The translations under genes were made by a program, and so were the position numbers. A DNA stretch of 64,000 bases, from contig JAENRS010000019.1 in assembly GCA_018466975.1 (NCBI GenBank), positions 1-64,000 on the forward strand. The letters are read 5' to 3'. Below the pieces are notes generated by a model, which was not told where the DNA came from, ran no database searches, and saw only the letters and a list, made by a program, of their open reading frames with translations. Numbering within the stretch: position 1 is the first letter of the stretch; each line of letters starts with the position of its first letter. Of the stretch, positions 9,442 through 61,833 are shown piece by piece. This stretch comes from Sparassis latifolia. Taxonomy: Eukaryota > Basidiomycota > Agaricomycetes > Polyporales > Sparassidaceae.

Positions 9442-10889
<1,448 letters not shown>

Positions 10890-10899
<10 letters not shown>

Positions 10900-39332: not shown

Positions 39333-39525
39333 TATTTGTAGCAGTGTCAAGTAGAATCACTCAAAGTGGATAGCATGGAATGTATAGCATAATCATGAAA
39401 GTGCTATTCATAGGACGTTCACTGACATGAAAGCATACCGCTTCCCGTCCCAAGTGGTTCAAAATCGGGTGATCCTGTCCGCACTGCATCGCCTCAATAC
39501 TCCTGTGACCAGTGCATATGGTACA

Positions 39526-40258
39526 TCAGCCTTCAGTTACGCGCTGTAGATGCTGAGTTACCTTCTGCAGGGACTTGAACACATAGGTTTCCATTGACCA
39601 TTCCATCCGGATCGCATGGTCAACACGTTCTGATGCTGAGATGATGCTGACTTCCTCGGTACACGTTTTACTCCAGATACTTGCTCCAAAGTCTGGATAT
39701 GCACAGAAAGGATTGAGCGCGGAATCTGGCAAAGGTAAGTACTGGTGGATGGCCAGAAATGCGTGCTGAGAATCTTTCTTGTTACCATCATCTTCATTGT
39801 GACCGACGACCGAAAATATATGCCGGATGACATCTGGTACTGGCGGCACCGTGGGAGATGTTTGGAAGAACACGAGACTGTTCTTCTCGTTGGAGTGGAC
39901 AGTCGAATATCGCGTGCTGCGGATTGTGAGATGGCCATGAAGCAAGCAATGTCGGGTGAGTCACCAGCCTGGGACCAGAATGTTCAGTTCTGCTGATCGG
40001 GCCGCGAGGACATCGTAAAATTCACGTTCCAATCGGCGGACACTAGTCCAGTCAACAGTTGCACCGGTGTCTGGCGAAGGGCCGTCAAGAATTTGTTCGC
40101 CCAAGGTACGGATGTCCGTCATCAATGTGCCTCGCTGATCGCCTCCGAAGCATGACTGGACGATGGGTGCGCAGTCCTTCAGAACTTTCGGGCAGTCATC
40201 CCGCTTCAGAAATGCCTTGACATTGGCCGCGGTGCAGAAAGATTCAAGCGTCAGCCCA
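39526..40258 (-). CDS. Conserved-looking orphan gene, 5' part missing at the KDZ element end
   Basis: The minus frame is open from the element boundary: LTLESFCTAANVKAFLKRDD and DWTSVRRLEREFYDVLAARS (40245-39985), then an intron-like break, then exons with HAFLAIHQYLPLPD, NPFCAYPDFGASIWS and DHAIRMEWSMETYVF, ending at 39526. I recall similar AFLAIxRYxPL ... DFGA proteins in basidiomycetes, with no assigned function. The frame runs straight into the terminal repeat at 40259, so the gene may have been cut by the insertion. The sequence beyond the other end (60027 on) does not clearly continue it. Confidence 0.45.
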
Positions 40259-40335
40259 TTCAGTCATGTTTGTGAACTGGACTCCCATTTACCCTGACAT
40301 TGTCATGAACTGGACAGCCAGCGGACATCGGCCCA
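40259..40335 (+). repeat. Left terminal inverted repeat of the KDZ-TET element
   Basis: Near-perfect inverse of 59950-60026, about 75 bp, with a 1-nt indel and a few substitutions. Confidence 0.9.
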
Positions 40336-40384
40336 TCGGTCTGTGTAAGGAGCTGTCAGTGATCGGCTCATGGCGATGAAGGGA

Positions 40385-41430
40385 ATGCTGGAGCGATGGG
40401 CCCACCACCATAGGAGTATTTCTGAGCGATCGGCCCACCACCATGATGCAACTATTATACAGGCATGGGCCCACCGCCGGTAATAGTTCTGAGCGATGGG
40501 CCCACCGCCATAGGTGTATTTTTGAGCGATCGGCCCACTGCCACGGGGCTATTATACAGCCATCGGCCCACCGCCACCATGGTAGTACTGAGCGATGGGC
40601 CGACCACCATAGGTAGTGGTCTGAGTGATCGGCCCACCGCCACTGGGGCTATTATAGAGCCGTCGGCCCACCGCCATAGGTATATTTCTGAGCGATCGGC
40701 CCACTGCCACGGTGCTATTATACAGCCATCAGCCCACCGCCATAGGTAGTGTTCTGAGCGGTGGGCCGACCGCCATAGGTAGTGTTCTGAGCGATCGGCC
40801 CACCGCCATAGGTAGTGTTCTGAGCGATCGGCCCACCGCCATAGGTAGTCTTCTGAGCGATGGGCCGACCACCATAGGTAGTGTTCTGAGCGATCGGCCC
40901 ACCGCCATAGGTAGTGTTCTGAGCGATGGGCCAACCTCCATAGGTAGTGTTCTGAGCGGTGGGCCGACCGCCATAGGTAGTGTTCTGAGCGATGGGCCCA
41001 CCGCCATAGGTAGTGTTCTGAGCGATGGGCCCACCGCCATAGGTAGTGTTCTGAGCGATGGGCCCACCGCCATAGGTAGTGTTCTGAGCGATCGGCCCAT
41101 CGCCATAGGTAGTGTTCTGAGCGATCGGCCCACCGCCACGGTGCTATTATACAGCCATTGGCCCACTGCCATAGGTAGTGTTCTGAGCGATGGGCCGACC
41201 TCCATAGGTAGTGTTCTGAGCGATGGGCCCACCGCCATAGGTATATTTCTGAGCGATCAGCCCACCGCCACGGTGCTATTATACAGCCATCGGCACAACC
41301 CCATAGGTAGGGTTCTGAGCGATGGGCCGACCTCCATAGGTAGTGTTCTGAGCGATCGGCCCACCACCACGGGGCTATTATACAGCCATCGGCCCACCGC
41401 CATAGGTATATTTCTGAGCCCATAAGCATG
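40385..41430. repeat. Left subterminal minisatellite, about 33-bp unit
   Basis: Roughly 30 tandem units with core GGCCCACCGCCATAGG and spacer GTGTTCTGAGCGAT. A variant spacer (CTATTATACAGCCATC) recurs at intervals. Since 33 is a multiple of three, long repetitive ORFs arise on both strands; these are not genes. Two degenerate units also occur at 41855-41940. Confidence 0.95.
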
Positions 41431-41479
41431 GGTCGCCTGAAATATCTGACTAGCCTGGGCATAGCTGAGTTATTTGCCT

Positions 41480-41850
41480 TGCCCTAGGTTGTCAACTGGG
41501 CTCGTATCGTGTCCGTGTCGTCTTGGTGAAGCATGGGTGGGTGAAGGAACATACCAGATGATTCGTCAGGGAGTAGCATAGGTGGATGTATGAAACATGG
41601 AGATTGGTCGGGGGGAAGCATGGGCGGATGTATGAAGCGTGGAGATTGGTCAGGGGAAGCATGGGCGGATGCCACACCTGGTTGCCCGAGCCAAGAAGTA
41701 GACCATACGAAGTGAGCGGATTGTACCGAAGTCAACGAAGAGCACGAAGTAGGCGAGGATGCGGGCGTGTGCAAATCAGCGTCTGAGCTGAAGGACACCA
41801 CAGAAGAAGGGGCTCCGACGCCGAGTCGTTGCTCATGCGGCACCTCTTGC
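41480..41850. repeat. 42-bp imperfect triplication
   Basis: Three diverged copies around GAAGCATGGGYGGATG between 41525 and 41680. The minus-strand ORF 41843-41484 with repeated FIHPPMLP units is a consequence of the repeat; it could be a short low-complexity protein but I do not call it. Confidence 0.5.
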
Positions 41851-42061
41851 TCAGACCTATTGGCCCACCGCCATAGGTGTAGTTCTCAGCGATCAGTCAA
41901 CCGCCATAGGCATATTTTTCAGTGATTGATCCACCGCCTAACAGGGCAATGATGGAGCTACCGCCGGCCAATAATTTCCACGTAATCCACCCATCATTCC
42001 CTCCAATTCTGGTTAGCTCACTATCAGCTCTCCTTGCAGTATCACACTCTCTCCCACTGTG

Positions 42062-42400
42062 GGAAGGGTTGGCGAACTGTGGCGAATATCCTTCGCCATC
42101 TGAACATGGAGTTCAGAATGACTTCGCCAAACTCTCACAATTGGCATCGGCGTTTCGAGACATGCATCGATACAATTTGGGATGTGCCCTTCTGGGTAGA
42201 GTATGTGGAGACGAATGGCGGTCCTTTCCATCATGAGTAGGGTTGGCGAACTGTGGTGGATATCACTCGCCATCTGAACATGCAGTCCAGAATGACTTCG
42301 CCAAACTCTCCCATGTGGCATTGGCTTTCGAGCCATGCATCAGATACCATTGGGGATGTGCCCTCCTGAGGAGAGTATGTGGCTACTATGTTTCGCCTTA
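42062..42400 (+). repeat. Tandem duplication of about 175 bp
   Basis: 42062-42236 and 42241-42400 align along their length (GGGTTGGCGAACTGTGG, ACTTCGCCAAACTCTC and GGATGTGCCC occur in both). The copies are diverged, so the duplication is old. Confidence 0.8.
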
Positions 42401-42494
42401 CCACACCAGGTACATTGCCCAGGTTCAAAGACATGACAACCTTATATTCGACACACTACAGCACGAACGGACGCCTGGCATTGGGCGATTACAT

Positions 42495-43203
42495 TCCTAA
42501 CTCACGCAGCTGCCGCGTCGCCTCCTGCAGCTCTTCCAGCACCACATCCAGGTTCTGATCTGTCCTCTCGTGCAACCAACTAGTGAGGTTTGCGATGCGA
42601 ACATGCAGCTGTTCAAGCTGCACCAGTGTAGACTTCGGAGGCGGTGTACACCTTCTCCTACATTCTCGAGTTCAGCAAGACTGTAAGGTGCTGGAGCGTA
42701 CCACTCACCCAGGGATCACCAAGTTTGTACCACCAGGCCTCCATAGGGCTCCCGCGGCCCAACCTGGCGATCCCATTTCCACCAGTAGTCGGGTGAATCC
42801 TCGAGTAGGTTCTTAGGGCGAGGAATGAGGGTGGTGGGGCGTGGAATCGCCTTGGCGTCAATGCTGATGGGGCGCAGAACCGCGATTGAAAGTGCAGGCG
42901 GTGAGGACACTGGCGATAACTCCGCCATGGTCAATATGGTCAGCATGACCCGCCAGCGCGAGTCGCCACAGATACCCCTGACGGCAAACTGCACAGGACT
43001 CAGCAGGGTCAGGTGATATCAGCAAGAAAGGCGTACCATCTCCCGGCACAAGCCTTCCTCCCAACGGACCTTGGTGAAGTGATCTGGGTCAGGCTCCAGT
43101 GCCAGAACAGCTTCTTGGATCCTCCAAGTGTAGACTTCCAACTGCAACCTCCCTCTGGAGAACAGGCAGGGCGCGCATCTGATGTTGAAGACTGGGCAGA
43201 CAT
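42495..43203 (-). other. Possible small gene, unrecognised
   Basis: Minus ORF from 43203 begins MSAQSSTSDARPACSPEGGC; a GT-AG intron (about 43041-42994) could join it to an exon reading MAELSPVSSPPALSIAVLRP and SPDYWWKWDRQVG. The frame across the junction is uncertain. No family recognised. Confidence 0.3.
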
Positions 43204-43439
43204 GACGGTGAGTGGATGAGCCGAGGTTGATATCTGATCGACCTTATCTGATGTCTGATGTCATGCGATTGGAGAGCACATGCCGAGATGAAGCCCTCAG
43301 GCGAGGATGGAAGTCACTTCGCCAAATGTGATATTGGTGAGTAGGAATTACATACATGGCGATCACTACATCGATATAGCAAACATGAATATCGTACACC
43401 CCAGTGAACCCTGACTCAAAGCACATTTTCATCGCCCGC

Positions 43440-46400
43440 CCTTTCGTCCTCAATGTCCAGGGCGAGGATGTGGCTGAAGCGTCAGTGGCGTGGCTGGCGA
43501 AGGTCCGCCACATACTCACTTGCCTGGCGGCATAGCAAACATGACCCGCCAGGAAGGATCCGTCATCTCGAGCCAGTGAGCCCATCGTTCCGCATTCCGC
43601 TTGAAGGTGGCTATGGTCCAGGCCATTTCGAGTGGACCAAGACACGCTCCTCCCTCCATCTCTCATATCGAGCTCTGGCACGCAGCCAATTCACTCTATA
43701 GACTGGAGGGTAAATTAGCAGGAGGCCTAGAGATCGATCGGACAATTACGAACACTCGTCCATCCATTCTGATGAACCTCGATCTCCAGCGACATCCATG
43801 GTCAGAACCAAGCCAGGTTGGCGTTCCTGAGCCGGAGGTGCTAGCCTCGATGACGGCAGTCTTCACGTGCAGGTCCTTCTTATCCAAAGGGCGATAGAGG
43901 GCCAAGTCTTCATCGGTGGCGCCCAAGCGCATAATGGCGCATCGGTTGGCGGAATAGAGCCTGGCGCAGGCCAAGACGGTCTGATCGGCAGCATGAACCT
44001 CCGCCTGTGCACGGGTCATGGTTCCGATGCTGTTGGTGGGACGAACCCTCTTGCGGTAGAGGTAAGACTTCAGTCCAAGCGCCATGCGAAGCTCGTGGAG
44101 GATGTCATTCATCAGGCCTTTGCGCAACTCCAACTCTTGGGCCACCAGGGTCTGGAGCCCGTTGGCGATGGCGGCCATGAATCCGATCTGCGAAGGTAAA
44201 TTCAAGGAAGCTTGCTCGGGTGGAATCGCATCCTCGCCATACTCAGCGTCCTCCGGGTGTATTTGAAAAGGATTCTCATCCAAGGAATCCCAGAGCGCAC
44301 CATCGTCACGATCTTCCATGGCGGGAACATCCTCCAACCTTCCCATGAACTTCTCAGAGCGACGTTGGAATGTGAGAATGCTGACTTGAGCGCTGGCGGC
44401 GCTCGAGAGTCTTGAGGTCCTCCGCCATGCTCGGATTTTGACCCGCCTTGCGGATATCATTCGCAAGCTTAAGCCTGAAGGCCGTCAGAGCTCTATTTTT
44501 GTAAAGACGAGGCAAACTCACTGTGCTTCTTGAATTTTGAGGCCAGTCGACAACCATCCGGCGGTGCCCTTCTCCAAGCCCTTGGCGGACTCCTCGCCCG
44601 CCAGTCTGAGTTGGGTGAGGTCTTTACCGGGGCTTGCATTCCACGTCAACTACATGCCACACGATGATGGAAGGATACTCACCCTTCCTGAGCTGGACAT
44701 CGAAGGTGTCCATAATCTTCGGATCATTTTGGCGAGCCTCCATAGCGTCGTCGTACTCCTTCTGCCATGCCTCAAGGACCTCCTCATCTGTGGATGCAGA
44801 TAAAGCTTCAAAGGACTCCTTGCTTCTTGGGAAGCCCAGGAGCACGCGTTTCCACTTTGTCATCAAGGTTGGCACTGTAGGCAGCATAAGGCAGGTGGCA
44901 AATAGGGAAGGAGGAACCAGGCTCACCCATGCGAGTCGTCTTCTTCCAGTTGGAGTCATTCATGTGATCGTCAAGGACTTCTTGGCGGTGAGCTCGGGTC
45001 ATGCCCCTGGTACTGCCTGAGACCTCATTTGTGGGCGCCCACAGGGTCTCGATGACCTCGCCATCGACCATACCAGCGCCAACTATAAAGTTGGGCGAGA
45101 ACCGTTGGAAGCAGCAATCTTGGTGTCCGTGCACATGAAACAAGCCGATGCCTTGGTCTATCTTGAGCTCGAAGGGCATCCTCAGATAGGCGCTGTGGCG
45201 GAAACGTTTGCGGACATGGACGCCATACTGGCACATGATGTCGTACATGACGAGGACGAGGGTGATACCGGTGAGGGTCAGGAGCGCATTGCTGAGAGAG
45301 TAATCCATATTCATTTGTCTGCAGAGGGTGCGTCGGTGAGAATGAATCATGACAAGAGACATATGCGAACCTTTCTCCCTTCTGGAAATCGACGACAGTA
45401 TGAGGGCGAAGAAACCATGTCTGGCGCAAGCAGTGGCCCCGATTCCTGTGGCGTCGAGGTTGGCGCGATCCACATTGGCCTGATTGACAGCGCGGTGCTC
45501 ATGACAAGTGGAGCGCTGGTGGGCTTAGGAGTCAAGGGCGGAAGAAGAACGTGCAGCCAGACACGCACCTGATGGGACTCCATGGCCACCGCCAGATGAG
45601 CCTTGTAATCCTCTTGGCGACCATGAATGCCTGGCCGTCACTGAGGCGGCGTCCTCCTCGGGTGCTTCATCTTCATGTGCTCTGCACTGAAATTGCCATC
45701 CATGACAAAGCCGCGTTTGAACTTCCACTGCACTGGATCCGCTTGCCAATCGAAAGGCAGGTTGAGCCCAGGCTGGGGACAGGCGGGATAAAAGATGGCG
45801 AGGCCACCCTTCTCCACAGGATGGAGGGCATCGTGTGAGAAGCCGTGCCACTTGCGATATTTGAGTTGGCGCCATTGGCGGGACACCCGCATCAGCTCAC
45901 GATAACGGTCCTGGCGAGGAACTGGCATGAACGGTTGGGCCATGGGAATGCATGTGAACACTTACAGGAACGGTGCCAGGGAAGGCATTGCTCGTGACCC
46001 GTTTGAGCTTGCTGTAGTAGTTCAATGCCGCCGTCTTGCACTCTTTGTTCTCCAGAAGGAAATCGTCGAGGGCGGCGAATGTGAAAGCGGTATGGGGATC
46101 CTTGCGGTACCAGGGTAAAGTCCCATTTGAAGAAGCTGCATGTCACACTCCACTGCCATCTCACACTGGCACCAGTCAACGCCGATATGGTGAACGCCAG
46201 AGATGTCGACAATGACTATGATCCGATTCCCGTAACTGTCACGGCGAGGTGGCCGGGAGAGCACCGGTGGCACATCTTCCTCCCAAGTGGGATCGGGAGC
46301 ATCGTCGGTTTGCCTTGCTTCACCGTCAAGGGTGCCTGCCAGAGGTGCAAAGTTGAATGGGACCTCGCCATCATCTGAGACCTCGCCATCATGTGCATTT

Positions 46401-47093
46401 AGGTCTTCATTGGAGGCATTCCAGAAATCGGACCCCGGGGCCACCACCGGCGCAGGGTTGTTATGTGCTGTGAAGGCGCCCAGAGGGCAGGGATCTCCGC
46501 CATGCCCCAAATGGATGCAGACGCCAACCCGATACAGTGATGCCGGCTCAAAATACTGACCCTGCCAATGCTCTATCCGATGGAAAGGAGCACGCTGATG
46601 GCCATTACGACAGCAGTCGGTACAGGTGAGCGGTCTGCCCATACAGTCCAGGCATCGCCACCGTCCCTCGCCAACCTTGCATTCCGCACAGTTTCTGGGC
46701 TCAGGCGGGGCTTCCATCTCGACAATGGCATGAAGATAGTCATCACGGTGGGGTATCCAGTCCCTCATGAAGTCATTCTGGGTCTATCGCGCATGGTCAG
46801 ACCGTCAGATGGTCATGGCGGGAGTGCCCACCTTTGTCTTCCGAGCCGCCGGATCCAGCTGAATCGGCACACCTATGTTGCCCAGGACGTCGCCATCATC
46901 CAAGTTAAACAAGGAGCCTGAAGCTGGAGCCTTCGATGGACTTTTGGAAGGCGATGGCACGTTTGAACCGTGGGCATGGGCAAAATGCGTCCACATAGCG
47001 TACTCCCCTAGTGGTCTGCTTAGCTACCTTGGTCACAAACTCAACCTCGTCATCCAGGTCTACAACGAGCCTGCTTTTGTTGCATCTGCTCAT
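43440..47093 (-). pseudogene. KDZ transposase, CxC2 type (several frameshifts)
   Basis: Starts MSRCNKSRLVVDLDDEVEF at 47093. After an intron near 46825-46772 comes NDFMRDWIPHRDDYLHAIVE and the CxC2 cluster: CAECKVGEGRWRCLDC, CTDCCRNGHQRAPFHRIEHW, FEPASLYRVGVCIHLGH, then IIVIVDISGVHHIGVDWCQC. KDZ core: DRYRELMRVSRQWRQLKYRK, YPACPQPGLNLP, FVMDGNFSAEHMKMK, VNQANVDRANLDATGIGATA, GERQMNMDYSLSNAL, VMYDIMCQYGVHVRKRF, GIGLFHVHGHQDCC, NFIVGAGMVDGEVIETLW, RGMTRAHRQEVLDDHMNDSN, and a C-terminal NWLRARARYERWREERVL (near 43680). Single-base frame changes are visible near 46104, 45650-45600, 45400 and 43625, so this copy is not functional as it stands, unless these are assembly errors. Confidence 0.88.
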
Positions 47094-47622
47094 GGTTCAG
47101 GTCAGTGGGGAGTCGTATTGCAAACTCATCGATGAGCATTGTGTCCCTATCGCACAACACGTGCAAATCACACACGGTCTTGCTGCCCACCAGACTACTC
47201 ATCAAGGTGGTTAAGAATGGCTGCAATGCCTGGGCCTTATCACCTCGTGGTCTCTTTAGGCACCATATCAGCGTTATGCAGATAAGGATGCCATGTTGGC
47301 GAGAGGTCCGCCAATTGTATGTCGCTCTCAGTGCTAACTTTGCCTTGACTCGGAGTAGCATAATGCTCAAAGGGGAAACGTGCACTTGCACTGCGCGCTC
47401 GCCAACGCTGCCGCCATCTGCCCCACTAGCACTCACAACTTCTCGACCGAACACATTTCGCCACCATCTCCGCCAACTTCGAGGTCCGCCAACCATATGC
47501 TGCCATCAGTGATAACTACACCTTGAGCTGAACACTGTCGAGATGTGAAATGCGCACTCGTACCGTGCGCTCGCCAACCTTCAGCTAGGATTCGGAAATT
47601 CGAGACTCCATACATTTCGCCA

Positions 47623-48739
47623 TCACCTCCGCCAACTTTGTCCCGCCAATGAAGCTGCCATCGACAGTCTCCATCCCCTGCATAGTGTTCTCGTCTCCAT
47701 CAGTCTTTGGCATGATGTCCCTCTAATAAGCGAGCCAGTTAGGACCTGTTCTGAGTTAGGAATGCAGACTCGGTGATGAACTGTGCACATGCCAATGTGT
47801 GAGGCGTAATATGAAGCTTGCATCCAGTGGGGCGCCGGAATGCCTAGCCTGTTCTGGACACCCTCTCGCATGAAGTATGCATAGACGAGCCTTTCGCCAT
47901 CTGCTCGAGTGATGCCATGACGAATCGCCTTTCCACAGAAGGCTATGACAGTTCCAGGACTATAATCGATGGCGACACGCATGGCGGGGAACTTCAACCA
48001 CGCGCAAGTGTAGTTGCCCAACGTCGCCAACAGGTCGTAGAAGGTGTATCTTGTCTTGCTATCTCGGTGGAAAGGAGTTTCCCGGTTGGCGATCACCTGG
48101 AGCGCATTGAATGGCGACGACCAGTTCAGCGCCATCTCTCGCAATTCTGGGTCTTGCTGGATCAAACCCAAGCACTGGCGTCCTGCGGCATATAGTGTTG
48201 GGTGAACGACGGCCAGGATGGCGCCCAGCAATGCGGAGGAGTCATGAATATCACGCAGCCAACTTCTTCCGCCCTCAAGCTTCAGGCTGGCGGAGGTCTC
48301 CAGCCTCCCAGACTCCATATGCTGCAAAGGCTGTCCAGACGCAAGGCAAATGGCGTGGCGAGAGACCCACCTCTCTTACTTGTTGGAACCAACCTGGCGA
48401 GAGACACAAGGAGCCCGCTGGGGTGGGCACACTCCTCAGGAGGCAAGAAGTACAACGGGTTGTGTCGCCAACTGGCGGTGGTGCTGGAAGGCTTACTGGC
48501 TGCTATTGCTGGGTGTAGGGCCCTGGTCGCTTGGAGCATCTTCGTCTGACAAATTTGTCAGATCACAGCGCAAGGCTGGGCAAGCCACTCACCTGGCGGT
48601 CTGGTATCAACACTCTTGGAAGTATCCAAGCCAAGATGCGTCCGTGCATGTCCACGAGGGTGGCGGGCTGGTCTATCGTATTCGCTCTCACCAAATGGAG
48701 GAGGCCACTTCCGTTCCAGTTCTGCCTCGAGGACTTCAT
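47623..48739 (-). CDS. TET/JBP-family 2-oxoglutarate/Fe(II) dioxygenase
   Basis: Fungal TET/JBP proteins oxidise 5-methylcytosine in DNA. The C-terminal exon (48327-47623, 234 codons) is open and holds all expected catalytic residues: H87 and D89 in ANRETPFHRDSKTRY, the distal H137 in GTVIAFCGKAIRHGI, and R146 in ADGERLVYAYFMR, the 2-oxoglutarate-binding arginine. The family blocks WSSPFNALQVIANRETP, LATLGNYTCAWLKFP and GIPAPHWMQASYYAS are present. Upstream exons read ATLVDMHGRILAWILP (from 48739; the true start may lie further up), an intron at 48586-48540, then LHPAIAASKPSSTTASWRHN and PPEECAHPSG. The junction near 48360 is not resolved. It lies upstream of the CxC2-KDZ transposase on the same strand, the known KDZ-TET arrangement. 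Confidence 0.85.
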
Positions 48740-49720
48740 TCTGCCCGTGGGCTGAATCGAAAGGCTGTCGCAATATCTATCAATGTCCCTGCAGCCTTAC
48801 TATTACAATGGCGTGATCAGTGTGATCAGACCTGCGGCAAGACTAATGACTACCAGGATTACGGATGGCCTTCACAAGAGCATCTGCAATGCCATTGCAC
48901 TCCAATAGGAGGCGGATGGCATGGCGGAGAGCACTTCTATAGATGGCGCAGAATGGGCTGCATGAGTGGCCAGATGGAGCTTTCGGCGGAACATGAGCTC
49001 CAAGACTCCTGCTATCTGATCGGTCAGTGGCATGGGTGACAGATTGCTCATCTTGATACTATCTGCCAATCAATGGGGCGATTACAGCATGCATCGGTTG
49101 AAGGCAGCACAGGTGTATGGCGGGCTCAGGCGGTTGGCTTGCAGATGCAGGGAGAATGTAGGAGGGCCAGAATGGCAAAGAACAGTATGCATTCATCTGC
49201 CTGCATATTGCTTGCAAGCACGTCCCTTGCACATCTCACATGTTCATCATGCCGCCGAGCCGGACTTGATGCCGCCATGCGGATCACGGGCGGGTGGTCC
49301 GCCATGTCTGGGCCCTTCGTCACTGCCATCTAATTGGCGAGCCTAACTCCGAGGAAGCCCTTTATCCCACAGATTGGCATGCAGATGATCGCCAGATTGC
49401 CTCCGCCCAGCATTCGTGAGATGAAGTTGGCGTGGTGTGCTCTGCCATAGAAGCGGCATTCAACATTGCCTTTCACCAGGCATGAATGCTAGTGCATACC
49501 TACTACCACCTCCGCCACTGCGAAAAATACACATACAATGCTTCAGCAGTCACCACACACCATGGCGAGGAGGGTAATTGGTGTAAGCCCAAATGGGCCA
49601 TCAGCACGTGCATATTGAGTTGTGGGCGGCCGCCGAGGAAATGGACAGGCGCTGCCCGTTGAACTATCGACCCCCTTCACTGCCCCAACACAAAAATCTC
49701 ATCCTCGACATCGAGAAAGC
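48740..49720. other. Stretch between the divergent TET and HMG-like genes
   Basis: May hold the 5' part of the TET gene (minus ORF 49329-49126, MAVTKGPDMADHPPVIR) and promoters. Nothing else is recognised. Confidence 0.35.
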
Positions 49721-52619
49721 ATGCCGGCGAGATTTGTAATTTTGACGGAGCATCAGCCCATACTCTCTGAGAAGCTGCGGTCTTATGACACGGCAGATGC
49801 CAAGGGTCGCAAGACTCTGGTTCAGAGCTTGCGCCAGAAGCTAAAGACACAGTTTGTTGACGCATCAAATTATGACGACATCATTGTGGAAACTGTGAGC
49901 AGTGTTTCATGTCTGTGAGGTCCCCACTAACTCTCACCGCAGAAAATCTGAGAGTGGCTCAATAATCACACCCGCCATGTGCAGGAGAAAGTGACGAAAA
50001 AGCGTATGCATGTTTCTGGCAAGCCCAATGCCTTCAAGGTGTGGGATGCGCTGGAGAGGGACAAGGTGACTGAGACAGTGAGAGCACTCACGGCAGAAAA
50101 GGGTTGCAATGTCTCCAAGGTGTGGAGAGTGGCACAGAGTGCCGAATGGGCAAAACTGTCCGAGGAGGAGCAGAAGGTGTATGAGGCAGAAGGTGTATGA
50201 GAAAAAAGCGGAGAGTTGGCATAATGGCACTCTGGATGATAAGACGAAAATGAAGTGCATACCTCCTGTCACGTAGCATAAGGCAAATCCTGACCTAAGA
50301 CAGGCTGAGGGAGCAGCAAATGATGCAATATCTGAAGAAGTTTGCCAAGACTATGTGGGACACCATGGGCATTCGCATGGCATTCATGCTAGCATATCCG
50401 AAGGAAGCGGGAGTCTGAAGGTAGAGATGTGGCGTAGACCGTCCGACTGTCGCCATCTGCTAACCCAGTGAAGGGTGGAGGTCAACCACGCCATCACCAA
50501 TGGAACTCCATTCGGGGCCTATCCTGGGTGGCTGCGTGCTTACCAGCCTCTAGCAAAGGTGTTCTCTGAGTGGGCCAAAGGCGAATACGGTAAGAAGACC
50601 TCAGTTGCATTGTCGCTGGCACACTGACCTGATTCCTTAGGTGTGACTGAGACTACGGTGATGGTGAAGAAGACACCTGCCGATTGCATGCGGGCCATGG
50701 ACAAGATTCAGTTGACGGCCAACGGTTTTCCTCTGCTCCGTCGGTGCCCGAAGGTATGGCGGAAGCGCCTCTCAAGGTGATGAAGGTACAAGTTCGAGAC
50801 TTCATGAATCATCACTACGGTATGACACTCCCACTCGGTGTTGAGAGATGCTGACCAGTTTACAGCATTGGCGAAGGGTGTTCGGAACTGCAAGTCGCCA
50901 TGGACGAAGCTGAACAGCATAGACGACATCAATGAGGTTATTCCAGCGGAGATGCTACCTGAGAACTTCCAGTGGATCGATCCCTCAAAGATGACAAGTG
51001 TTCCCGTTCGTGCCCTCCTCGACCACTGGCGGGCACGCCAAGAGGAACATGGACCTGAGCAGACCATGCGATTCACCCAGTACTTCGACAAGGATGGCGA
51101 AGCTGCTCCCGCCAAGTATGATCCTCTTCCACCACTTGACGGATCAGCACAGGCATTAGAAGAAGGATCTGAACATGAGGTCCAAGAAGCACTCACACCG
51201 AAGAAGGCGGGGAAGGCGAAGAAGAAGGGTAAACCTGTGCGCAAGGTCACGGGAAAGCGGCATCGAAGGCGACAAAGGGCAAAGCGGCCCCTGGCGGAGC
51301 CAAAGGCGGTGGGCGTAAACGCAAGATGAAAGATGCATACGACTCGGAAGATGATGCCAGAAGCAGCCAAGACTCTGATCGGAGTTCGCCAGATATACCC
51401 AGCATGGCTTCCGAAGAAGATACGGCCAGCGATGAAGATTCAGGGGATGGCGAGAGCGTGATTGCGAATAAAGCGAAGGGCAAGGCAGTCGCCACCACCA
51501 ATGGGCGTAAGGCTAACAATGGTGGTGCACCTCAAGCGAGTGGTAGCGGCGGTGCCAAGACGAAGGCAAGCGAGGTCTCCAAGACCTTCCTCTGGGCGAA
51601 CTGCACAGATTTGACACAGAGGAGACCGATGAAGCATGGAGTGAACTGGAGCCCAGTACAAAGGAGCTCAGGCTTGAGCTTCAAGGCCGAGCCCACGTCT
51701 CACTGGCGGGAGTACTGTGGGAGTACTGTGCCCCACCTCGTGAAAAGGAGAGCGTGTTTCGCCACCCTTTCCGTCGAACGCGATACCAGGATATGCTGAA
51801 GCAAGTCAAGATTGCGACTGTGGTGAGCTCCTTTCGTGGGGATTCATATACACTATTGATCATCCGTCATATAGCCCCAGGTGTATCGTTTCGCCAGGTA
51901 TGATCCGATTCCCTGGAGCGAATGGTCGTATGGCCAGCGCTACCTCCGCCGTCATTTCATGCGGTGGACAACTTTGACATCGTCGAGAACTGGTTAGGCG
52001 ACAAACCATGGCTGACAAAATATCGGTTCTTACATCCACAGGGCGTACAACAATCTGCACTCGTGATTGGTATGGCGCTGAGGACCTCACACGATCTCAG
52101 TTCATTGAGGAGGCGAACCGACCAACCTTCCCGACTATGTGGTGAACTCGGCGATCTCATTTGACGCAGTAGAGCAGCTGCTTCGCTGTTGCGAGATCAT
52201 TACCTTGGACATGGTGGAAGGAGCGTCACCCATGCCATGGTGAAGCCAGTGAGCAAGCCTGCCATGCGCGGTGCCCCACAAGGTGGCGATGGCCTTGGGG
52301 GCCAGGAGGAGCAGGAAGGTGATGCCTCTGCAAGAACTCACGATGGCGCTGCTACTGCTGCCAAAGTTCACAAGGCTCACCAGCCTGCCCCCATGGCTGA
52401 CAAACCAATCATTCCAAGTGGAGAGACGAAGGGCCGAGCCAGGAGACCAGTGGTGGGGCCTCTGGCGATGGCGAAGAGGGCGATGCACACTTGTCCGTAC
52501 CTAGCAGTGGTGCTGAGCGACCGCCACCGCCTCCGTTTATACCTAAGGCGAGGAAGGCGCAGCCACGGAAGACCGTCCGTCAGGTCAAGCCAAAGCGCTC
52601 CAGGAAGGTCGATCACTGA
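49721..52619 (+). CDS. HMG-like orphan protein of the KDZ-TET element (at least one frameshift)
   Basis: Starts MPARFVILTEHQPILSEKLR at 49721. Spliced exons follow: KIWLNNHTRHVQEK-type joint (about 49890-49960) to KKRMHVSGKPNAFKVWDALE and WRVAQSAEWAKLSEEEQKVY, an HMG-box-like arrangement. Then MMQYLKKFAKTMWDTMGIRM; SPWTKLNSIDDINEVIPAEM and QWIDPSKMTSVPVRALLDHW (50890-51040); a long Ser/Lys/Glu-rich linker; RYQDMLKQVKIATV (51780); RFARYDPIPWSEWSYGQRYL (51885); and LPDYVVNSAISFDAVEQLLR (52130), which is one frame off from the preceding EEANRPTF. A low-complexity tail ends RKVDH at 52619. Proteins of this layout are widespread orphans in Agaricomycetes; the function is unknown, DNA binding is plausible. 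Confidence 0.6.
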
Positions 52620-53285
52620 TGCCCTTCAGAGTAATATCCCGGCAGGATCACTGCGCAGTCAGCGTCAAGCGATGGATGAGTCGCCGCCAAGAATACCCGC
52701 AGTCAGCATCCACTAGGAGCTGTGAAAGATTTGAAGAAGCTTCCTGATCCAAAGCGGAAATGTCAACCAGCACGTCCGAGCCCGATGGCGAAGACAGCTC
52801 TGGCGAAGACAATCCGCCACCTCGGAGCGTGGGCGTGGTACTCGGGGCGAGTTGGTAGTGGCCTCGCCGAGAAGAAGAATGCGAGGGCCGAGGACTCGGA
52901 TGATGGTGACAAGCCTCCCGCAAAGCGAAGCGAGCTCTGCCTCAGACCCGGAGGTCAAGGACAAGGGAGAAACCAAGCTGAAGCCGGTCCGTCTGGGGAA
53001 AGCAGCCGCCAAAGTGAAAGAGAGTGGCCAAGTTGGCGCAGGTCGCAAGACCCGCAGTGGCGGCACCAGACCTTGACAATATAACTCCAGTTCAAAGTAG
53101 ACTCGTAGGCTTCCACATTGTTTAATGTGACCCATAGATCTACATAGGTAAAGCCATGGAGATGGTGGCAATGGCGAGGGGAGTTGGCGAGAACTTCAGC
53201 AGGCATTCAGTTGACTTGGAGTGGCAGTGGCGAATCGAGTGCATGGAGATTCCATGCTAGGTTAAAAAGCATGTATATCAATACT
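52620..53285 (+). other. Acidic/Lys-rich coding-like tail region
   Basis: Short open stretches (KDLKKLPDPKRKCQPARP, AEDSDDGDKPPAKRSEL, KLKPVRLGKAAAKVKESG) look like disordered protein on the plus strand, possibly a further exon of the upstream gene or a repeat of its tail. The stop near 53076 is in frame with the last piece. Not resolved. Confidence 0.3.
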
Positions 53286-56200
53286 CTAATGACTACACAT
53301 TGTGGCTATCTGGGCGAAAGGCGGTGAAGACCATGGCGGAGTCGACCTTCTCTCGGAATGCGTCCAGAGACTTCGCCACCAGCGAGGTTTCCTCTCTCGC
53401 CGTCGCCACCTCCTTCCCCACCTTCTTCGCTTCATCCAAAGCGGACGTCGCCACCGCCATCGAATCCTCTTTGGCGAGCGCCAATTCCATCTCCAGCTTG
53501 CTCGCGAGCGATCGCCTCTGCCGCCGAAGACCTGAGCTCCTTCTCCATGCTGTCTGACCGCGCTGCCTGGAGCTCCATCGAATGACGGAGGTCGGCCAAT
53601 TCGCCCTGCAGCTTGTCGACGTCCGCTTGGCTCACCGTCTGGTTCGCGCCTTGCTCCAACCTGTTGACCTTCTCCTTGAGCTCTGGCAGGCAATGTCGCT
53701 TGGCGACGAGGTCCGCCACCGCCAACTTCACGCTCTCCTGAAGCTCGATGGTGACCGGCCTGCGAAACTCCTCCATCGCCAACTTGACCTCTTCGCGAAT
53801 GCTCCGGGCATTTTCTTGAAATGCGGATGGCGGGTTGATTCGCTGGAGCGCCGCTGTGATCTCTGCCTTGACGGTGTTGAGGTCCGCCATCCTCTCCTGG
53901 AATTGGACTTCCATCCCGTCCTTGTGCGCCAGGAACTCCTGTCGCAACTCGGCTGGTCGCGCAGTCATCGTTGGATGACTGCGAGGTTTCTTCGCCACTG
54001 GGGTGTCGCCGTTCACGGGCGGGACTTCCTGTAGACACTCGCTGGACGTCGCGCAAGTGGGGTGCTGTATCCTGGTCAGCGCTGCATGGATTGAAGCTGT
54101 GGCGGGCGCACTTACCCTTGCTGGTCGGAGGCACTGCTCTGAGGCGGTTCGCCTTCGCATCCCTTTTTGCCTCCGCCTCCTTCTTCGCTGCCTTGCGGTC
54201 CAGTGGGGTGCCCCTCTTAGCTGGCCTTCGCCCTTCATCGAGATGTCCTGCCTTCGCCAATGTGGAGGACTTCGCTCCTTCGACGCCTTGGATATCTCCA
54301 GGAAGGCGTCACCTCCTGTGCCACCTCGGCAGCTCCTGCGCTCGTCTCGTGGGGCATCAGCAGCGAACGCCGCCGATCGTCGTGTGGCCGCTCCAGGGCG
54401 CGCTGTTTCATGGTTACATCGACTCCAGCTGCGACAAGATGTCCTGCTTACCTCATCCTCCGCCACCTCTGCCTGATACTCTGGCGCATCCTCTGGTTCG
54501 TCGGCGACTGGTGTCAGCATGCGCTTGCTGCTGCTAGCTTGCGGCGGAGCAGCTGGCCCTGTTTGGAAGGCCATAGCCCGCACCGCCTCCATTGCCAGCC
54601 TGGCGGCTTCCTCCATGCCATCGCCTTCTGCCAGAGGCATCTTGGCTGCTGCCTTTGGAGCACTCGCCCCTTGTTGTCTGCCCGCCCTCCTTCGCAACAG
54701 ACTTGGCAGGCGGGACCTCATCCGCCTCACGTACTGAGGTCCTGGTGACCTCGCCACCATCTTGCGCACCTGAGTTTTGGCTCCTCACCGGCTTTGGCTT
54801 GGGTCCTGATTTCTTACCTTCGCCAGGTTTGGCGACCGCACCAGACTTGGCAGGCGCGCCAGACTTGGAGACCTCGCCAGAGTTGGCGACCTCGCCAGAG
54901 TTGGACAGAGCCACAGCTCCAGTGGCGGTGGCGGACTTGGTGGCGCTTGGACTTCGGCGATTTCTCCACGAGGCCTCGCCTTCAGCGTTGGCTTCATAGC
55001 GCGTGACGGTCGCCTTCTGCTTCGTCGCCTCGACCTCCTCGCCACCCTTGACCATGGAGCTGGATGCTGCAGCATTGCGTGTCTTGGTCTTCTTCGGCGG
55101 CTTGCGCTTCGACGCTCCCATGACCATGGGTTCTGCACCGTCGGGCTCATCGGAGTCGACCTTGACGTCGTATGGAGGTGGCGACGTGGGCAGTGGCTTG
55201 CCCTCTACCACCAGCGCTGCGCACATCTCTTGGAACTCACGCTGTGCGGTGTGTGAGTTTCCTCGCAGGGGCACGCCATCCGTGTTCCTCGGCGCGATGC
55301 TGCAACTGACGCCTCGTGCTGCACATTCGAGGCAGCGACCGAAGTTGGCGGTGTTGAGCTTGCATGGCCACTCTTTCTCCTGGCAGCCAACGCAAGGGAC
55401 GAGCTGCAGGAACATTAGCACAGGTCAATGTCTCACAAGATCGTTACTCACCGAATCTGTTGCATGTGCCCACATGAAGTCAGACACGCGGGTGGACGTC
55501 TTTTTCCACATGTCCTTCTGCGACACCGTCACCTTCGCCTTCGCCTTCGCCGTCGCCTTCCCCTTCGCCGTCGCCTTTGCCTTCCCCTTCGCCTTCGCCT
55601 TCGGTGCGACATGAGGCGTCGCCGTCATCCTCGTTGTCTGTTTGACAGGTTTGGCAGGGGCGTTCGTCTTCGCAACACCGTCGTTAGAGTCCCCTGCGGT
55701 CTTGGCGGGTAGATTGGAAGGCGGTGCCGGAGTCTCGTCTTCGCTTTCGATGAACTCCTTGCTCTTGTATTCCTTCGTCGCACGCTTCTTCTTTGGCGGC
55801 TTGACGGTCGGTACTTCCTCTTCATCGCTTGACTCCTTCGCCTTCCTCTTCCCGCTCTTCTTCGTGCTCACCTTCGAGCCCTCCACCTCGGTCTGCGCCA
55901 TCCTCTTCTGCGCACGCTGCGCTCGGCCAGAGGTGGTCGGGGCCTCGCCTTTCTCCTTTGCGACCTCGATCGGCTTCATCCGCTTCGCCTTCGGAGCCGC
56001 CTCCTCATTCTCACTCTCCTCACTCGACTCTGTGATGACCGCCTTGCGCTTTCGGAGTGATGGGGCAGCTGGCGAGATCGATATTGGTCTGGCAGTTGGC
56101 GGAGGGGGCGACGCCGCATCGACCTCGATGGATTCGGGCTGGCCTGCACCCGGCACGTCTTCCGCCATCTCATCGTCGTCATCTTTGTCGGCATCGTCGT

Positions 56201-57033
56201 CCTCGTCACTGTCGGCATCGTCGTCGTCCTCGCCCTCCTGCTCCTCTCCCTCTCCCTCTCCCTCTCCCTCTCCCCCATCCTCTTCCTCGCTCATCGCATG
56301 CGCCGCCTTCCCCTGCGCCTTCTCCTTGCTCTTGCCCTTTCCCTTGTCCTCCCCCACCTCCACGTGGACGATACGCTCACCCACCATGCCTGTCCCGACG
56401 TCGTTGTCAGCTCTCTCCTTGCCTTTCCCCTTGGTGACGAGGTCCCCGGTAGCCAGGTCCTCCTCGCCACGTCCCTGGGTGTCGTCATCGGCTGGCACAT
56501 TGCCCCAGCCCTCCGCTGGCATACTCTTCACCAGTGGCAGCTTGCAATATGGATCTGGTGCAGTCAGTGTGTCGCTCGGCGCCTCCTGGCGCTTGTGACT
56601 CACCTTCAGTCCACCACTGCCTTCCCAGGTCCTCACACTCCCCATACTCGCGCACAGCCAGAGGTACCTCTTGTATATCCTCTCGTCGTCGTTCGATATG
56701 TGGTCCAGCCGCGCCAGGGCCTTCTGCTGAAATGCGCCGGGTGAATTCCAGCAACGCACTGATGGCGATGCCAGGCATCCTCAGCGACTTCAAGGGCTGC
56801 GGGAAACTCTTTTCAAGCCGACTCTGTGTGGCATATTCGGTGAGGTATGCCAGACCTGCGACCGATGACTTACCACTTCGAGGTAAATCCTCGCCTCCCA
56901 GTCCGAATAGCGAGGGTCGTCCTGGCGGCGCCGCTGCAACAATGGCCGTCAGTCGCGCGGCCTGCAGAACATAGTTGGGGTCGATATCCAGAGTCATGGC
57001 GAGCTTGGCAGAAGAAAGCGTGAGGTGTTTCAA
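53286..57033 (-). CDS. Cys-cluster and coiled-coil protein of the KDZ-TET element
   Basis: N-terminal exon MKHLTLSSAKLAMTLDIDPN from 57033, an intron near 56880, then KALARLDHISNDDERIYKRY and WLCASMGSVRTWEGSGGL. A very acidic stretch (56270-56160) and Lys/Ala repeats follow (KAKAKGKAKATAKGK, 55600). The next exon (from 55404) has a cysteine cluster, CVGCQEKEWPCKLN ... CLECAARGVSC, spaced like a small zinc-binding motif. A Ser/Gly/Lys-rich linker leads to a long coiled coil, EVKLAMEEFRRPVTIELQES through QADVDKLQGELADLRHSMEL, then KVGKEVATAREETSL. Frame changes occur near 56740, 54740 and 53500, so the copy may be damaged. I recall relatives with this order in Agaricomycetes, unassigned. A nuclear DNA- or chromatin-binding role is possible but not shown. 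Confidence 0.55.
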
Positions 57034-57204
57034 AAGCAGAGGTTGCAGTACAGCGGAGGCGGAGCAGACGGCGCTATGAGCTGGCAGGCGCGATCTGCAC
57101 CAAGTTCAACTTCACACGCCACGCGACCACGTGCTTTGCGTGATCGCTGGACTTGCGCGATTTCTCAAGTCTCTCAAGGTCAGTGTGACCTGCCGCAAGT
57201 TCTC

Positions 57205-58750
57205 ATGGCTCCCAACAGTAAGTTCTATTGCTCTCCTTGTGGAATCTGACTCCTTTGTGATGTTATCTGACCTTTCTATGTCATATCAATCCCCTTTCTA
57301 CAACTGATCTCCCGCGATCCAGGACTGATCGAAGACTTGTCTGCTCGCCACAATCTACCTGCCATGGCCAGTGGCGCGGAACCTCCTGACACGCTGGACA
57401 TTACGATGGGCGAGTCGGATGAGGAGGATAGTATCGCTGAGCCCGTCGTCCACTCATTTCGGATCTCCTTGACTCTCCTGGATCTGCCCAGATCTCCTTG
57501 CCTCTCCACTCTGCTTCTCAGACACCCCTCACGCCCGCCACACTACCCGTCCCTGGCAGCTCCATTTGCGCCATCCAACTCGCCACATGAGCATCTTCAC
57601 CGCCACGCCTCGCCAAAGGTACAGGCGTCATCTGGATCTGTGGCGCCTGTGGAGGAAGTCGCGCACTTATTCCTGACCCTCTGGCGCCAGCTTGGGATGA
57701 AAGTCGTGGCAGTTCGCCAATCCATAGGCGTGCACTCATCTCAGATTCCACCCCACTGCGCCCGGTGGAATGTTCGACCGACACTCCTGGCATCTCGCCA
57801 ATCCCTCGGCGCCCTGTTGGAAGCTACTCCCCTTCCTCCACCAGCTCACACTTTCGACTTTCGCACTCCTGACACCTCCCAACTCCCTCGGCGATCGCTC
57901 ATCGCTGAGCCCCTTGGCGCTACACCACGTACATCCATCCGCCCGATAGTCAAGCAAATGCGCCCGATGGCGAGGGCATGCTGGTGGGCGAGACACTTGA
58001 TGCGGAACCAGTGCGAAACTGCTGGACTTTGACAATAGTCCTCCTGCCACGCCAGGGCGACGGCGAGCTCTGGTGATAGACAGCCCTGGCGCGGCGCCTG
58101 TGCGTAGCCAGGTCCGGTGGCTAAATAGTCCCAGCACTTCGCCTCCAAAGAGGCGGCCTTTGTTGGACGATGTTTTAAGTCCACCGCCTCCGCCATCGGC
58201 GCCCTCTCACTCGCCAGCTCGCACTTTCGATGACAGCAATTTCCGCCACGATGCACCTGTCATTCACTATATGAAAGGCAGCATCGAGCCAGTCACTGTT
58301 ACTTCCAGGATGCCAAGTCTGGCAGCACTTCCAGATGAGCTGCCGATCCATCGTCCCACCCATTGGGAACAGGTTCCAGGCTTATTCCCAGATACCACAC
58401 AGCTGCTGCCAATGGCAGTCCCTGGAGAGACGAATGCCGCTTCTGGCTCACAAGTGGCCCGCCTCGGTAGATCGTTTGCGCAGATCGCAGCAGAGGCAGA
58501 CAGTTCCAGTGAGTGCATCCTGGCAACCTTCAGTCTGATGTTGACCTTATTCATAGTGGGCGATGGCGAAGGTGATAGCTTTGCGGTTAGTCGTCGTCGC
58601 GCCATGTTGCGGGAGCGCATTGTACGTCTTCAGCGTGAGCTCAACCTCACTGAGGATATGCACGTTGCGAACCTCAATGCCAGCTCGACCGTGTTCCAAA
58701 TGGGGTACATTCTGAGGGACATTCGTGGCGAGGCGTATCGCAGCAACTGA
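57205..58750 (+). CDS. Pro/Ser-rich protein with a C-terminal coiled coil
   Basis: Begins MAPN at 57205; an intron (57217-57322) joins to RLIEDLSARHNLPAMASGAE and LDITMGESDEEDS. A long Pro/Ser/Thr-rich region with repeated SP and TP motifs follows; frame changes in it are likely because no single frame stays open. The last exons read VIHYMKGSIEPVTVTSRMPS and, after an intron near 58510-58556, SRRRAMLRERIVRLQREL and LTEDMHVANLNASSTVFQMG, ending at 58750. No known domain. It diverges from the Cys-cluster gene, with a 170-bp gap. Confidence 0.45.
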
Positions 58751-58849
58751 ACTAGTGTCTTTGAGCGTTTTGGTGTTAGCAATATATGACCGCTATGTAA
58801 CAGCTTGTATACCAGTACAAAATGGATACATTCACTTCTGCATCACTAA

Positions 58850-59945
58850 GCTCTAAAGCCCATCGCTCCTCCAGTGTACTCTTCAGATGGGCGGACTGCG
58901 CTCGCCATCACCAAGGCATGTTGTTGCCAGCAATTGGCCCATCGCCAAAGGACCTGAGTGAAAGCTTCACTGCATGGGAATATCGCTCCGCCAGCAAAGG
59001 GCCCACTGCCAAGGGTCAGAGGGTTGGCCATCGCCAAGCCGTGTTTTCGCCACCAATTGGCCCTCCGCCATGAGTGCTGGTGAGTGATGGGCCCACCGGC
59101 AAGGTCAGAGGATTGGCGATCACCAGAGCACGTCATCACCACCAATGCGCCCGGAAACTGCAGGGCTGTATGTGACAATGGGCCCATTGGTGGCGATGAC
59201 ATATCCTGGTGATCGTCAACCCACTGGCCTTTGGCGGTGGGCGATGACTGGCGATAACATGCTCTGGCGTTGGCCAACCCACTGGCTTTTGGCGGTGGGC
59301 GATTGCTGGCGGAAACATGTCCTGGCGATGACCTATCCCATGGGTGCTTGCAGTAAGGCCCTCACTGAGGTGCTTTGGCGATGGGCGACTGCTGGCGATA
59401 ACATGCTCTGGCAATCGTCAACCCTCTAACCTTTGGCGGTGGGCCCATCCTTCAGGTTACACTCTGGGCGATCGGCCCACTGCTCGTCGTCATACTCTGG
59501 CGGTGGGCGATTGCTCAGACAAACATGCTCCTCAGACAAACATGCTCTGGCCATGGCCAACACTCTGACCTTTGACGGTGGGCCCATCCATCATCTCATT
59601 CGTCATACTCTGGCGGTGGGCCGATTGCTCAGACAAACATGCTCTGGCCATGGCCAACACTCTGACCTTTGGCGGTGGGCCCATCCGTCATCTTACACTC
59701 GTGGTGATGGGCCCACTGCTCATTGATCATACTTTGGCAGTGGGCCCATCGATGGCGATAACATGCTCTGGCGTCGGCCCACCCTCTGACCTGTGGCAGT
59801 GGGCCCATTGCTTAACGGTTACAACACTGTAATATGCCCTGCTAGTGGGCCGAGCACTGGGATAAGAACACTAGCGGTGGGCCCACTGCTAGTATCCCAC
59901 ACATGAAAGATATGGGCCCACTGCTGGTAGAGGTCAACATGGTGA
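58850..59945. repeat. Right subterminal repeat array
   Basis: Irregular tandem units sharing TGGCGGTGGGCC and ACATGCTCTGGC. TGGCGGTGGGCCGATTGCTCAG here is the inverse of the left array's unit, so the two arrays face each other in inverted orientation. Units are longer and more varied than on the left. Confidence 0.9.
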
Positions 59946-59949
59946 CAAT

Positions 59950-60026
59950 GGGCCGACGTCCGCTGGCTGTCCAGTTCATGACAATGTCAGGGTAAATGGG
60001 AGTTCAGTTCAGGTAACATGACTGAA
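59950..60026 (-). repeat. Right terminal inverted repeat of the KDZ-TET element
   Basis: Inverse of 40259-40335. Confidence 0.9.
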
Positions 60027-61833
60027 AGGTGTGCAGGACCCTTCAACAAACATGCACCCGTGCAGTGTGAGGACACCTGGATGAAGCAGCATACAGAATG
60101 CGTCGATGAGCACAAACCCTCGAGTCAACAAGGAACCTACTCCGCTGGCACGAGCATGGCTCGGAGTGTTGTCTGACCACTCACTCCATGCATGCCAGCG
60201 AGGGCCGTGTAGAACGTGAGCCACGTGTGCCAACAACTCGACGCATCTTCAGATCGTCCACTCCACGCGTGGCAGTGAACGCAACTGCGAGGATCCGGAA
60301 GTTGAGAATGCACCTGTCCCCGACATGGCACGCCATCATCACAGTCCTTGTCTGGTGTGCGCTGACACGGTCGACACTGCCATGTTACCTCGTCCGGTGA
60401 GTTCTTCTGTTATCGCCTGGCAGGGTTGAACTCCCGCATGCTCATCTTCGACGAGGGCCGTGGCCGCTGCATCTTGCTCTACCGCAGAGACATAGTTATC
60501 ATAATCACACATACTATGTGCAGGTGTATAGTAACCTGTGAGACTATGTACTACCTGCCTGACCTGTCTATACTATTTCGACTACCCGTACCCGCCATGT
60601 ACCTCTACAATGCACAGGTTTAGAAACCCATCAATATAGTCCAGGTCAGTGTTGATGACTACACGGGTAGACCTGTGTCCCTGCTTACTCATAGTGTGCA
60701 CCTGAATCCTTGACTGATACACATGGTGTCCTCATGTACTGGAGCCATATGGATGATTCTCATGGTGAGTCATTACTGACATCATCATGCTTACGATCTC
60801 GGGCCGGGTCTTACAACCCTATGCCCTTGTACTGATAACGACGGACCTATTATAGCACTTACATTACTATAGCTACACGTATATAGGCAGTCATGTATTC
60901 GATAGGTTTCTTAATCTGAACCTACCCATTCTTAGACCATATATGCCTTGCGCTTTGCGGATAATGACTGAGGCTTGTGCCGGTCCCCAACAGGGCCGGT
61001 TGGCACTGACGACTTCAGTCCCCTAAAGTCTGACATTGGGCGGGTCACCCCTTGGGTTCCCCGTAACACTTGTGTTCTGTCTTCTGATATGATGCCTACA
61101 ACCAGTGCTGGGCTTAATGGGTTTTCTTATACAAGGCCTACAACTGGTGCAGGGCTTTCCGAGTCTTTGTTGTCTTCCTAATCTGGGTGCCTACAACTGT
61201 GTGCAGGGCTTACCGAGTCTTCTGTCTTTCTAATCTGGGTGCCTACAACTGTGTGCAGAGCTTACCGAGTCTTTATTGTCTTTCTATCCGGGTGCCTACA
61301 ACCATGTGCAGGGCTTATCGAGTACGTGTGTCCTATACAATGTGCCTGGCCGATAACTTTCCTATGTGCTTTCCGAGAACAGTTTAAGTATCTAGCAACC
61401 ATGTGCTAGACTACTCGAAAAAAACTGAACTAGAGTGCAGTAGTTGTGTTCGGAACAACTCATTGTCTGCAGCTGAACTGACTGCATCGGGATCCTTTTG
61501 ATTATGAGTAACAAGTTACAGGGAGGAGTGGAACGAAATCCTATTTTTTTAGTTTATACACTTGTAGGGTAAGCTACAAGTGGAGGGAGAACTCTTCACT
61601 TATAGGGGTTATAAGTGGGGAGAGAAGACTGTCGGTCAATGCGCCTCAGGGGTCCTTTTATACCCCTCGGGTGTCACCCATTGTGACCATTACATAGTAG
61701 TTTACATGGCAAATTGGCCAATAGCAAAATAAGAGCATCACATTGAAGGGATGCATAGTGCACTGAGGTAGAAATCACATCCACGAAGCTGTCTCACATT
61801 TCGGAGATACCACAGGGTGCTACACAACATACT
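60027..61833. other. Intergenic, no convincing gene; minisatellite at 61092-61325
   Basis: The minus ORFs at 60009-60331 include a cysteine-bearing stretch (RSCVHCHAWSGRSED) without a recognised family. 60440-60720 has several short inverted repeats around ACCTGT/ACAGGT. 61540-61690 contains paired CTTATAGGGGTTATAAG-like segments. Confidence 0.4.
61092..61325 (+). repeat. Minisatellite, five units of about 50 bp
   Basis: Units begin GCCTACAACTGTGTGCAG and continue GGCTTACCGAGTCTT, spaced 44-54 bp. Confidence 0.85.

Follow-up and report, generated by a model that had tools for sequence, protein, structure and literature searches.

Introduction

Kyakuja DNA transposons that carry a TET gene, generate 7-bp target duplications and terminate in CA..TG have already been published, Polyporales included, and their TET enzyme has been suggested to act as a counter to silencing (Kojima 2025, main text; PMC12730594). 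In this study, we analyzed a stretch of 64,000 nucleotides from Sparassis latifolia (contig JAENRS010000019.1, positions 1 to 64,000; hereafter the window), in which an earlier note had described a KDZ transposon of 19.8 kb with a TET/JBP dioxygenase gene and three orphan genes, here named X1, X2 and X3. As far as they are described in the main text of that paper, the TET-bearing Kyakuja of Agaricomycotina resemble the window element in having CA..TG termini, 7-bp duplications, a KDZ-type transposase and a CcTET-like (AG-type) dioxygenase (PMC12730594). Our results indicate that the window element probably belongs to a family of Kyakuja-like KDZ DNA transposons, ~20 kb in length, whose five genes move together as a unit, and they identify conserved partner genes and subterminal arrays that accompany the TET gene.

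Element ends and copies of the family

Comparison of copies placed the limits of the window element at 40252 and 60033, where similarity among copies stops, giving a CA..TG element of 19,782 bp. The inverted ends that had been reported at 40259..60026 are real, with limits shifted 7 bp outward on each side. The two ends form an inverted repeat of 64 nt at 97% identity (40273-40336/59948-60011), and end-to-end alignment of both ends revealed an imperfect terminal inverted repeat (TIR) of ~86 bp running from the CA at 40252 to the TG at 60033. Its left arm occupies 40252..40338 on the forward strand, copy similarity beginning at 40252, and its right arm, recognized from the inverted repeat and the copy comparison, 59947..60033 on the reverse strand; the inner limits of both are approximate. 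The facing subterminal arrays that had been described were also found. On the left, tandem repeat and core counts define ~31 units of 33 bp with a CpG-containing core (40391..41419, forward strand), and on the right there is a mixed repeat zone of approximate limits (58900..59930, reverse strand) whose core is mostly in the opposite orientation to that of the left array. Counted with up to two mismatches, the 12-base core occurs 30 times forward and twice reverse in the left 1.5 kb of the window copy, 5 times forward and 12 times reverse in the right 1.5 kb, and three times in each orientation in the 16.8-kb element body, while shuffling the bases of the left end 200 times gave a mean of 0.3 and a maximum of 4. 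The left 1.5 kb holds 13-42 forward cores across 13 copies, and across the 12 copies with an extractable right end the right 1.5 kb holds 10-18 reverse and 4-5 forward cores.

A search of the genome (41.4 Mb, 22 contigs) for the element ends identified at least 40 left ends (40 of 130 candidates scored) and at least 40 right ends (40 of 126 scored). Twenty-four pairs of ends were matched by hand, leaving further ends without a partner among the matches listed, and excluding C8:1439306-1474038 (34.7 kb; genome coordinates are given as contig and position) and the nested or duplicated sets C11:3024777-3051688 and C10:2829356-2844661. The prediction that other copies of 15-25 kb with the same ends should exist was borne out, as 19 of the 24 pairs are 19.3-21.6 kb long (the other five are 8.3, 9.1, 10.6, 14.3 and 30.5 kb) and the window element is collinear with all 12 of the other copies read at length, at 94-97% identity in aligned blocks over 7 kb. 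Each of those 12 copies was read as two halves, which in some are separated by a small gap. Of the 24 pairs, 11 are flanked by an exact 7-bp target duplication, the 9.1-kb copy included, and one more pair differs by a single C>T; the chance expectation is 0.04 matches over all 24x24 cross-comparisons. In addition, the 7-bp duplications vary in sequence between copies.

Several individual copies have unusual arrangements. The 7-bp duplications of an inverted pair (C10:495586-515388 and C10:538596-560016) are reciprocally swapped, indicating either a 23-kb inversion via recombination between the copies or an assembly error. The 9.1-kb copy with an exact duplication (C10:2499200-2508333) is perhaps an internally deleted copy that moved in trans. 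Two copies of 6.5-6.6 kb on different contigs (C11:3036251-3042893 and C10:2838182-2844661) have common short flanks, in which 6 of the 7 duplication bases match, as well as a common neighboring right end (GATCGTAGTT), and represent either a duplicated region or a misassembly.

The five genes and their linkage

Since the window copy is damaged and its flanks are mixed, our statements on gene structure rest on models built on another copy, C11:1289013-1308560. The CxC2-KDZ transposase gene (42470..47090, reverse strand; approximate limits, offset from that model) is frameshifted in the window copy. Its KDZ (PF18758, E 1e-41 and 5e-34) and CxC2 (PF18803, E 1e-12 and 2e-25) domains gave clear Pfam matches, as did the adjacent TET/JBP dioxygenase (47240..48318, reverse strand; approximate limits; Tet_JBP PF12851, E 3e-20), which confirms both gene identifications of the earlier note. 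Among solved TET enzymes, CcTet of Coprinopsis cinerea is the closest (E 3e-26), and this homology, together with an HxD..H motif (HRD..H in the window copy), identifies the enzyme as AG-type TET/JBP.

The three multi-exon orphan genes were all modeled in the C11 copy, and they match annotated Sparassis proteins. X1 (49721..53076, forward strand) is HMG-like and encodes ~960 amino acids in 10 exons, with an uncertain start codon and, in the window copy, a 16-bp tandem duplication at 50187 that is absent in all eight other copies with sequence there (four of the 12 had none); X2 (53293..56997, reverse strand) has a cysteine cluster and encodes ~990 amino acids in a 13-exon model, its longest S. 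crispa relatives having 1,134-1,175; and X3 (57364..58750, forward strand) is Pro/Ser-rich and encodes ~450 amino acids in two exons. The best 8,000 candidates by word sharing were scored in each protein search, so that distant relatives may be missed. All matches were hypothetical proteins: 12 of 12 for X1 and 8 of 8 for X3, both from S. crispa and S. latifolia, and 7 of 7 for X2, all from S. crispa, in which several X1, X2 and X3 proteins have near-consecutive locus tags. Of the labels given earlier to these genes, HMG-like corresponds to a sub-threshold match of X1, and coiled-coil and Pro/Ser-rich were read by eye. The cysteine cluster of X2 had no Pfam match as a zinc cluster in P0013, P0014 or the window frame, and the name Zn(2)-C6 stems solely from the UniRef label of P0014.

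The proposal that all five genes travel as a unit was supported, as X2, X3, TET and KDZ all lie within 16 kb of X1 at 28 of the 35 X1 places in the genome. A check for cargo away from KDZ genes found it to be mostly close to them: a close KDZ relative is within 25 kb at 32 of 35 places for X1, 31 of 35 for X2, 29 of 34 for X3 and 33 of 34 for close TET relatives. Places farther away are shorter or stretched copies, diverged loci and one fragment of 35 amino acids. For these counts, fragments belonging to a single gene were treated as one place, and KDZ matches that are more distant were excluded, as were ten TET places at 29-37% identity (eight of them assigned to the second lineage described below) and the TET matches C7:3173977 and C6:341876.

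The X1 places outside the 28 include a diverged locus, on C8, that has TET (-), X1 (+), X2 (-) and X3 (+) in the order and on the strands seen in the window element. The X2 gene of this locus is interrupted by a copy of the window-element family, and in a relative on C11 the sequence continues through that point. Between the window family and the diverged lineage the proportion of synonymous differences (pS) is 0.69-0.76, near saturation, and the proportion of nonsynonymous differences (pN) is 0.17 for TET (73 codons), 0.34 for X1 (391), 0.35 for X2 (139, two loci) and 0.45 for X3 (166), so that pN is below pS in the same direction for all three orphans. Because order and strands were kept and amino acids were conserved at a near-saturated synonymous distance, X1-X3 look maintained, and TET and its partners seem to have been kept as a group during evolution of the element.

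A second KDZ-TET lineage was observed at C14:675499-688459, C8:489276-501959, C9:271490-284117, C10:4938132-4950888 and C11:2344607-2358544. Its KDZ and TET proteins are ~41% and ~31% identical, respectively, to those of the window element, and a distance of 12-13.5 kb separates the two genes, whose strands are opposite. The C14 interval contains a frame resembling a zinc finger (zf-C3HC4_4, E 0.007, below the cut-off). The 2.6 kb of C14 that were read held none of X1-X3, and near the second-lineage loci the N-terminus of X2 had no match; X1 was tested there by exon 2 only, the X1 matches listed extending to E about 1e-17. This lineage probably has different cargo.

CpG decay of resident copies

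Thirteen copies together carry 1,193 private substitutions. C>T and G>A changes account for 908, and 656 of these are at CpG. The C>T rate is 285 per 1000 CpG sites versus 13.5-49.9 in CT, CA and CC, and C>T makes up more than half of the private substitutions in 11 of the 12 other copies (48% in C5). As read from sequence, this excess is the mark of methylated CpG that is expected of methylated copies. Methylated, decaying copies are what an element-coded demethylation would face.

The window copy and its flanks

The left flank of the window copy (38900-40251) consists of repeat sequence (at least 1.35 kb) to which five places in the genome are related at 96-97% identity. All five run through the left insertion point, here termed site A, and thus represent empty sites at paralogous places in the same genome, the earlier note having named an empty site in another strain as support. 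The left half of site A in the window is CAAGCGT (40245..40251, forward strand) and the empty sites carry CAAGCAT, one of them with a small gap just before the insertion point. Beyond that point they continue as the right flank of another copy, the one ending at C7:1758604, and that flank starts with CAAGCGT, the other half of the site. The window's own right flank, which starts with CAGGACC (60034..60040, forward strand), is foreign to site A; it has an 87% relative at C5:3838532, where no element end adjoins, and none of 41 left flanks proved to be its partner. The window copy lacks its own target duplication, which is most simply explained by flank exchange. As the empty sites continue into the flank at C7:1758604 and not into that of the window, the window copy is most simply the left end of one insertion joined to the right end of another, by ectopic recombination or misassembly. 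The description of the element as fully bounded thus applies to the family, with its common ends, but not to the window copy, whose flanks do not belong together. A CAAGCGT was also seen beside a left end at C2:554347, but its wider flank differs and the match was taken as chance. The right flank (60034-61400) is repeat-rich, with at least 43 matches (40 of 50 candidates scored) and a 53-bp tandem array at 61136-61323.

We lean toward errors of assembly and sequencing within a long repeat of near-identical copies as the source of the mismatched flanks and deletions, an explanation that concerns the window copy and not the family. The contig is small (226 kb), and private deletions in the window copy number 63 (46 remove 1 bp, in 38 cases a C or G; 14 remove 2 bp, two 3 bp and one 54 bp) versus 51 private substitutions, along with four private insertions. 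However, some other copies have private deletions too (2-29 events under a stricter rule), and the swapped duplications of the inverted C10 pair would also be expected from real ectopic recombination. Copies of 20 kb with mixed flanks either drive genome rearrangements or mislead assembly.

Outside the element, an open frame of 1,286 codons was observed at 10875-14732.

Discussion

The explanation that we consider likely is that the window element represents a mobile five-gene unit in which the KDZ/CxC2 protein would bind the ends, cut and paste, and the host would methylate resident copies. The element's TET would then oxidize 5-methylcytosine (5mC), delaying silencing, X1 and X2 would be DNA- or chromatin-binding helpers, and the inward-facing arrays would be candidate binding sites for X1/X2 or the transposase. 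We infer that X1/X2 and the arrays may direct TET to the element. A more specific and tentative proposal, which on balance we think rather unlikely to be correct as it stands, is a self-contained demethylation cassette in which X1 and/or X2 bind the 33-bp arrays and bring TET to the ends and promoters, so that 5mC is erased from the element and not from the genome at large.

Several observations weigh against parts of this explanation. Twelve of the 24 pairs lack their own duplication, exact or with one mismatch (two swap reciprocally, ten do neither), and so many copies were recombined, misassembled or wrongly paired by hand. The HMG_box_2 match of X1 is below the Pfam gathering score (21.0 bits in P0001 and 18.6 in P0005; cut-off 22.4), and its match to SOX-30 has an E of 0.18. 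The arrays also show C>T at CpG, so those of resident copies do not escape this change. The diverged C8 locus, which the inserted copy splits, yielded neither ends nor, with 107 of 157 KDZ candidates scored, a KDZ gene; from gene order alone we infer that it would be a diverged element. Protein similarity guided the choice of the pN and pS regions, and the diverged genes are partly decayed, with 2-3 stops in TET, X1 and X3, which makes the ratios soft.

An alternative is that the element is indeed a KDZ transposon, but that TET, X1, X2 and X3 were acquired in a single capture and are copied as passengers without benefit. Within the family, private changes in X1-X3 fit neutrality (ratios 1.00-1.15), and shared changes are slightly lower (0.73-0.91), the shared versus private comparison not being significant (pooled p 0.13); TET has fewer private changes than expected (ratio 0.50 on 43 changes). 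This comparison covers TET and X1-X3, the KDZ reading, which lacked an exon and lost its frame (24 stops in the majority reading), being excluded. Homologs of X1-X3 were, moreover, confined to Sparassis among the candidates scored. Against passengers stand the amino acids conserved at a near-saturated synonymous distance and the order and strands kept at the diverged locus, and we regard a passenger origin as distinctly improbable. Because neither ends nor a KDZ gene were identified at that locus, our confidence in a five-gene mobile unit was set slightly lower, and that in passengers higher. A segmental duplication or gene cluster with edge repeats would account for the long sequence common to many copies, but hardly for 7-bp duplications that differ among 11 of the 24 pairs, for the empty sites and the shared CA..TG ends, or for insertion into other repeats, and it has next to no credibility as an alternative to a transposon.

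Returning to the mobile five-gene unit, how a transposon-coded TET would act on its element rather than everywhere is now directly testable, as partners and sites have been named. If true, the demethylation cassette would be a fungal analog of VANC anti-silencing based on an eraser enzyme, VANC itself not being known as a TET enzyme.

Comparison with known systems

The KDZ domain and CxC cluster place the element in the KDZ superfamily, and its 7-bp duplications and CA..TG termini are those of Kyakuja, whereas Zisupton elements have 8-bp duplications. En/Spm, whose TnpA is associated with subterminal repeat motifs at both ends as in the window element, belongs to the CACTA superfamily and is not known to carry a TET gene. 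The VANDAL/VANC system of Arabidopsis, in the parts of the source consulted, combines element-coded anti-silencing with non-coding targets that form tandem repeats (PMC10398659); the likeness would be functional, targeting in the window element being proposed only. The KDZ1-KDZ3 elements of Cryptococcus neoformans, as described in passages of PMC12810828, share the KDZ domain, a CxC cluster and TIRs with the window element at a size of ~9-11 kb, but have CxC1 and not CxC2, TIRs of 139-241 bp and duplications of 8 bp (KDZ1) or 4-8 bp (KDZ2 and KDZ3), and those passages name no TET gene for them.

Closest are the Kyakuja themselves. Two Laccaria families are described without TIRs in the main text of Kojima (PMC12730594), whereas the window element has its imperfect TIR of ~86 bp and subterminal arrays, and we therefore call it Kyakuja-like, the TIR-less state describing those two families and not being a definition. 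No mention of X1-X3-like genes, subterminal arrays or Sparassis was found in that main text (PMC12730594), and no X1-X3-like cargo was found in the literature searched, whose scope lay outside Kojima's supplements and most subscription papers. The earlier note had considered both the defined ends and the cargo potentially new; TET-bearing KDZ elements with defined ends and 7-bp duplications are already known from that main text (PMC12730594), and what is new here is the conserved partner genes and the arrays.

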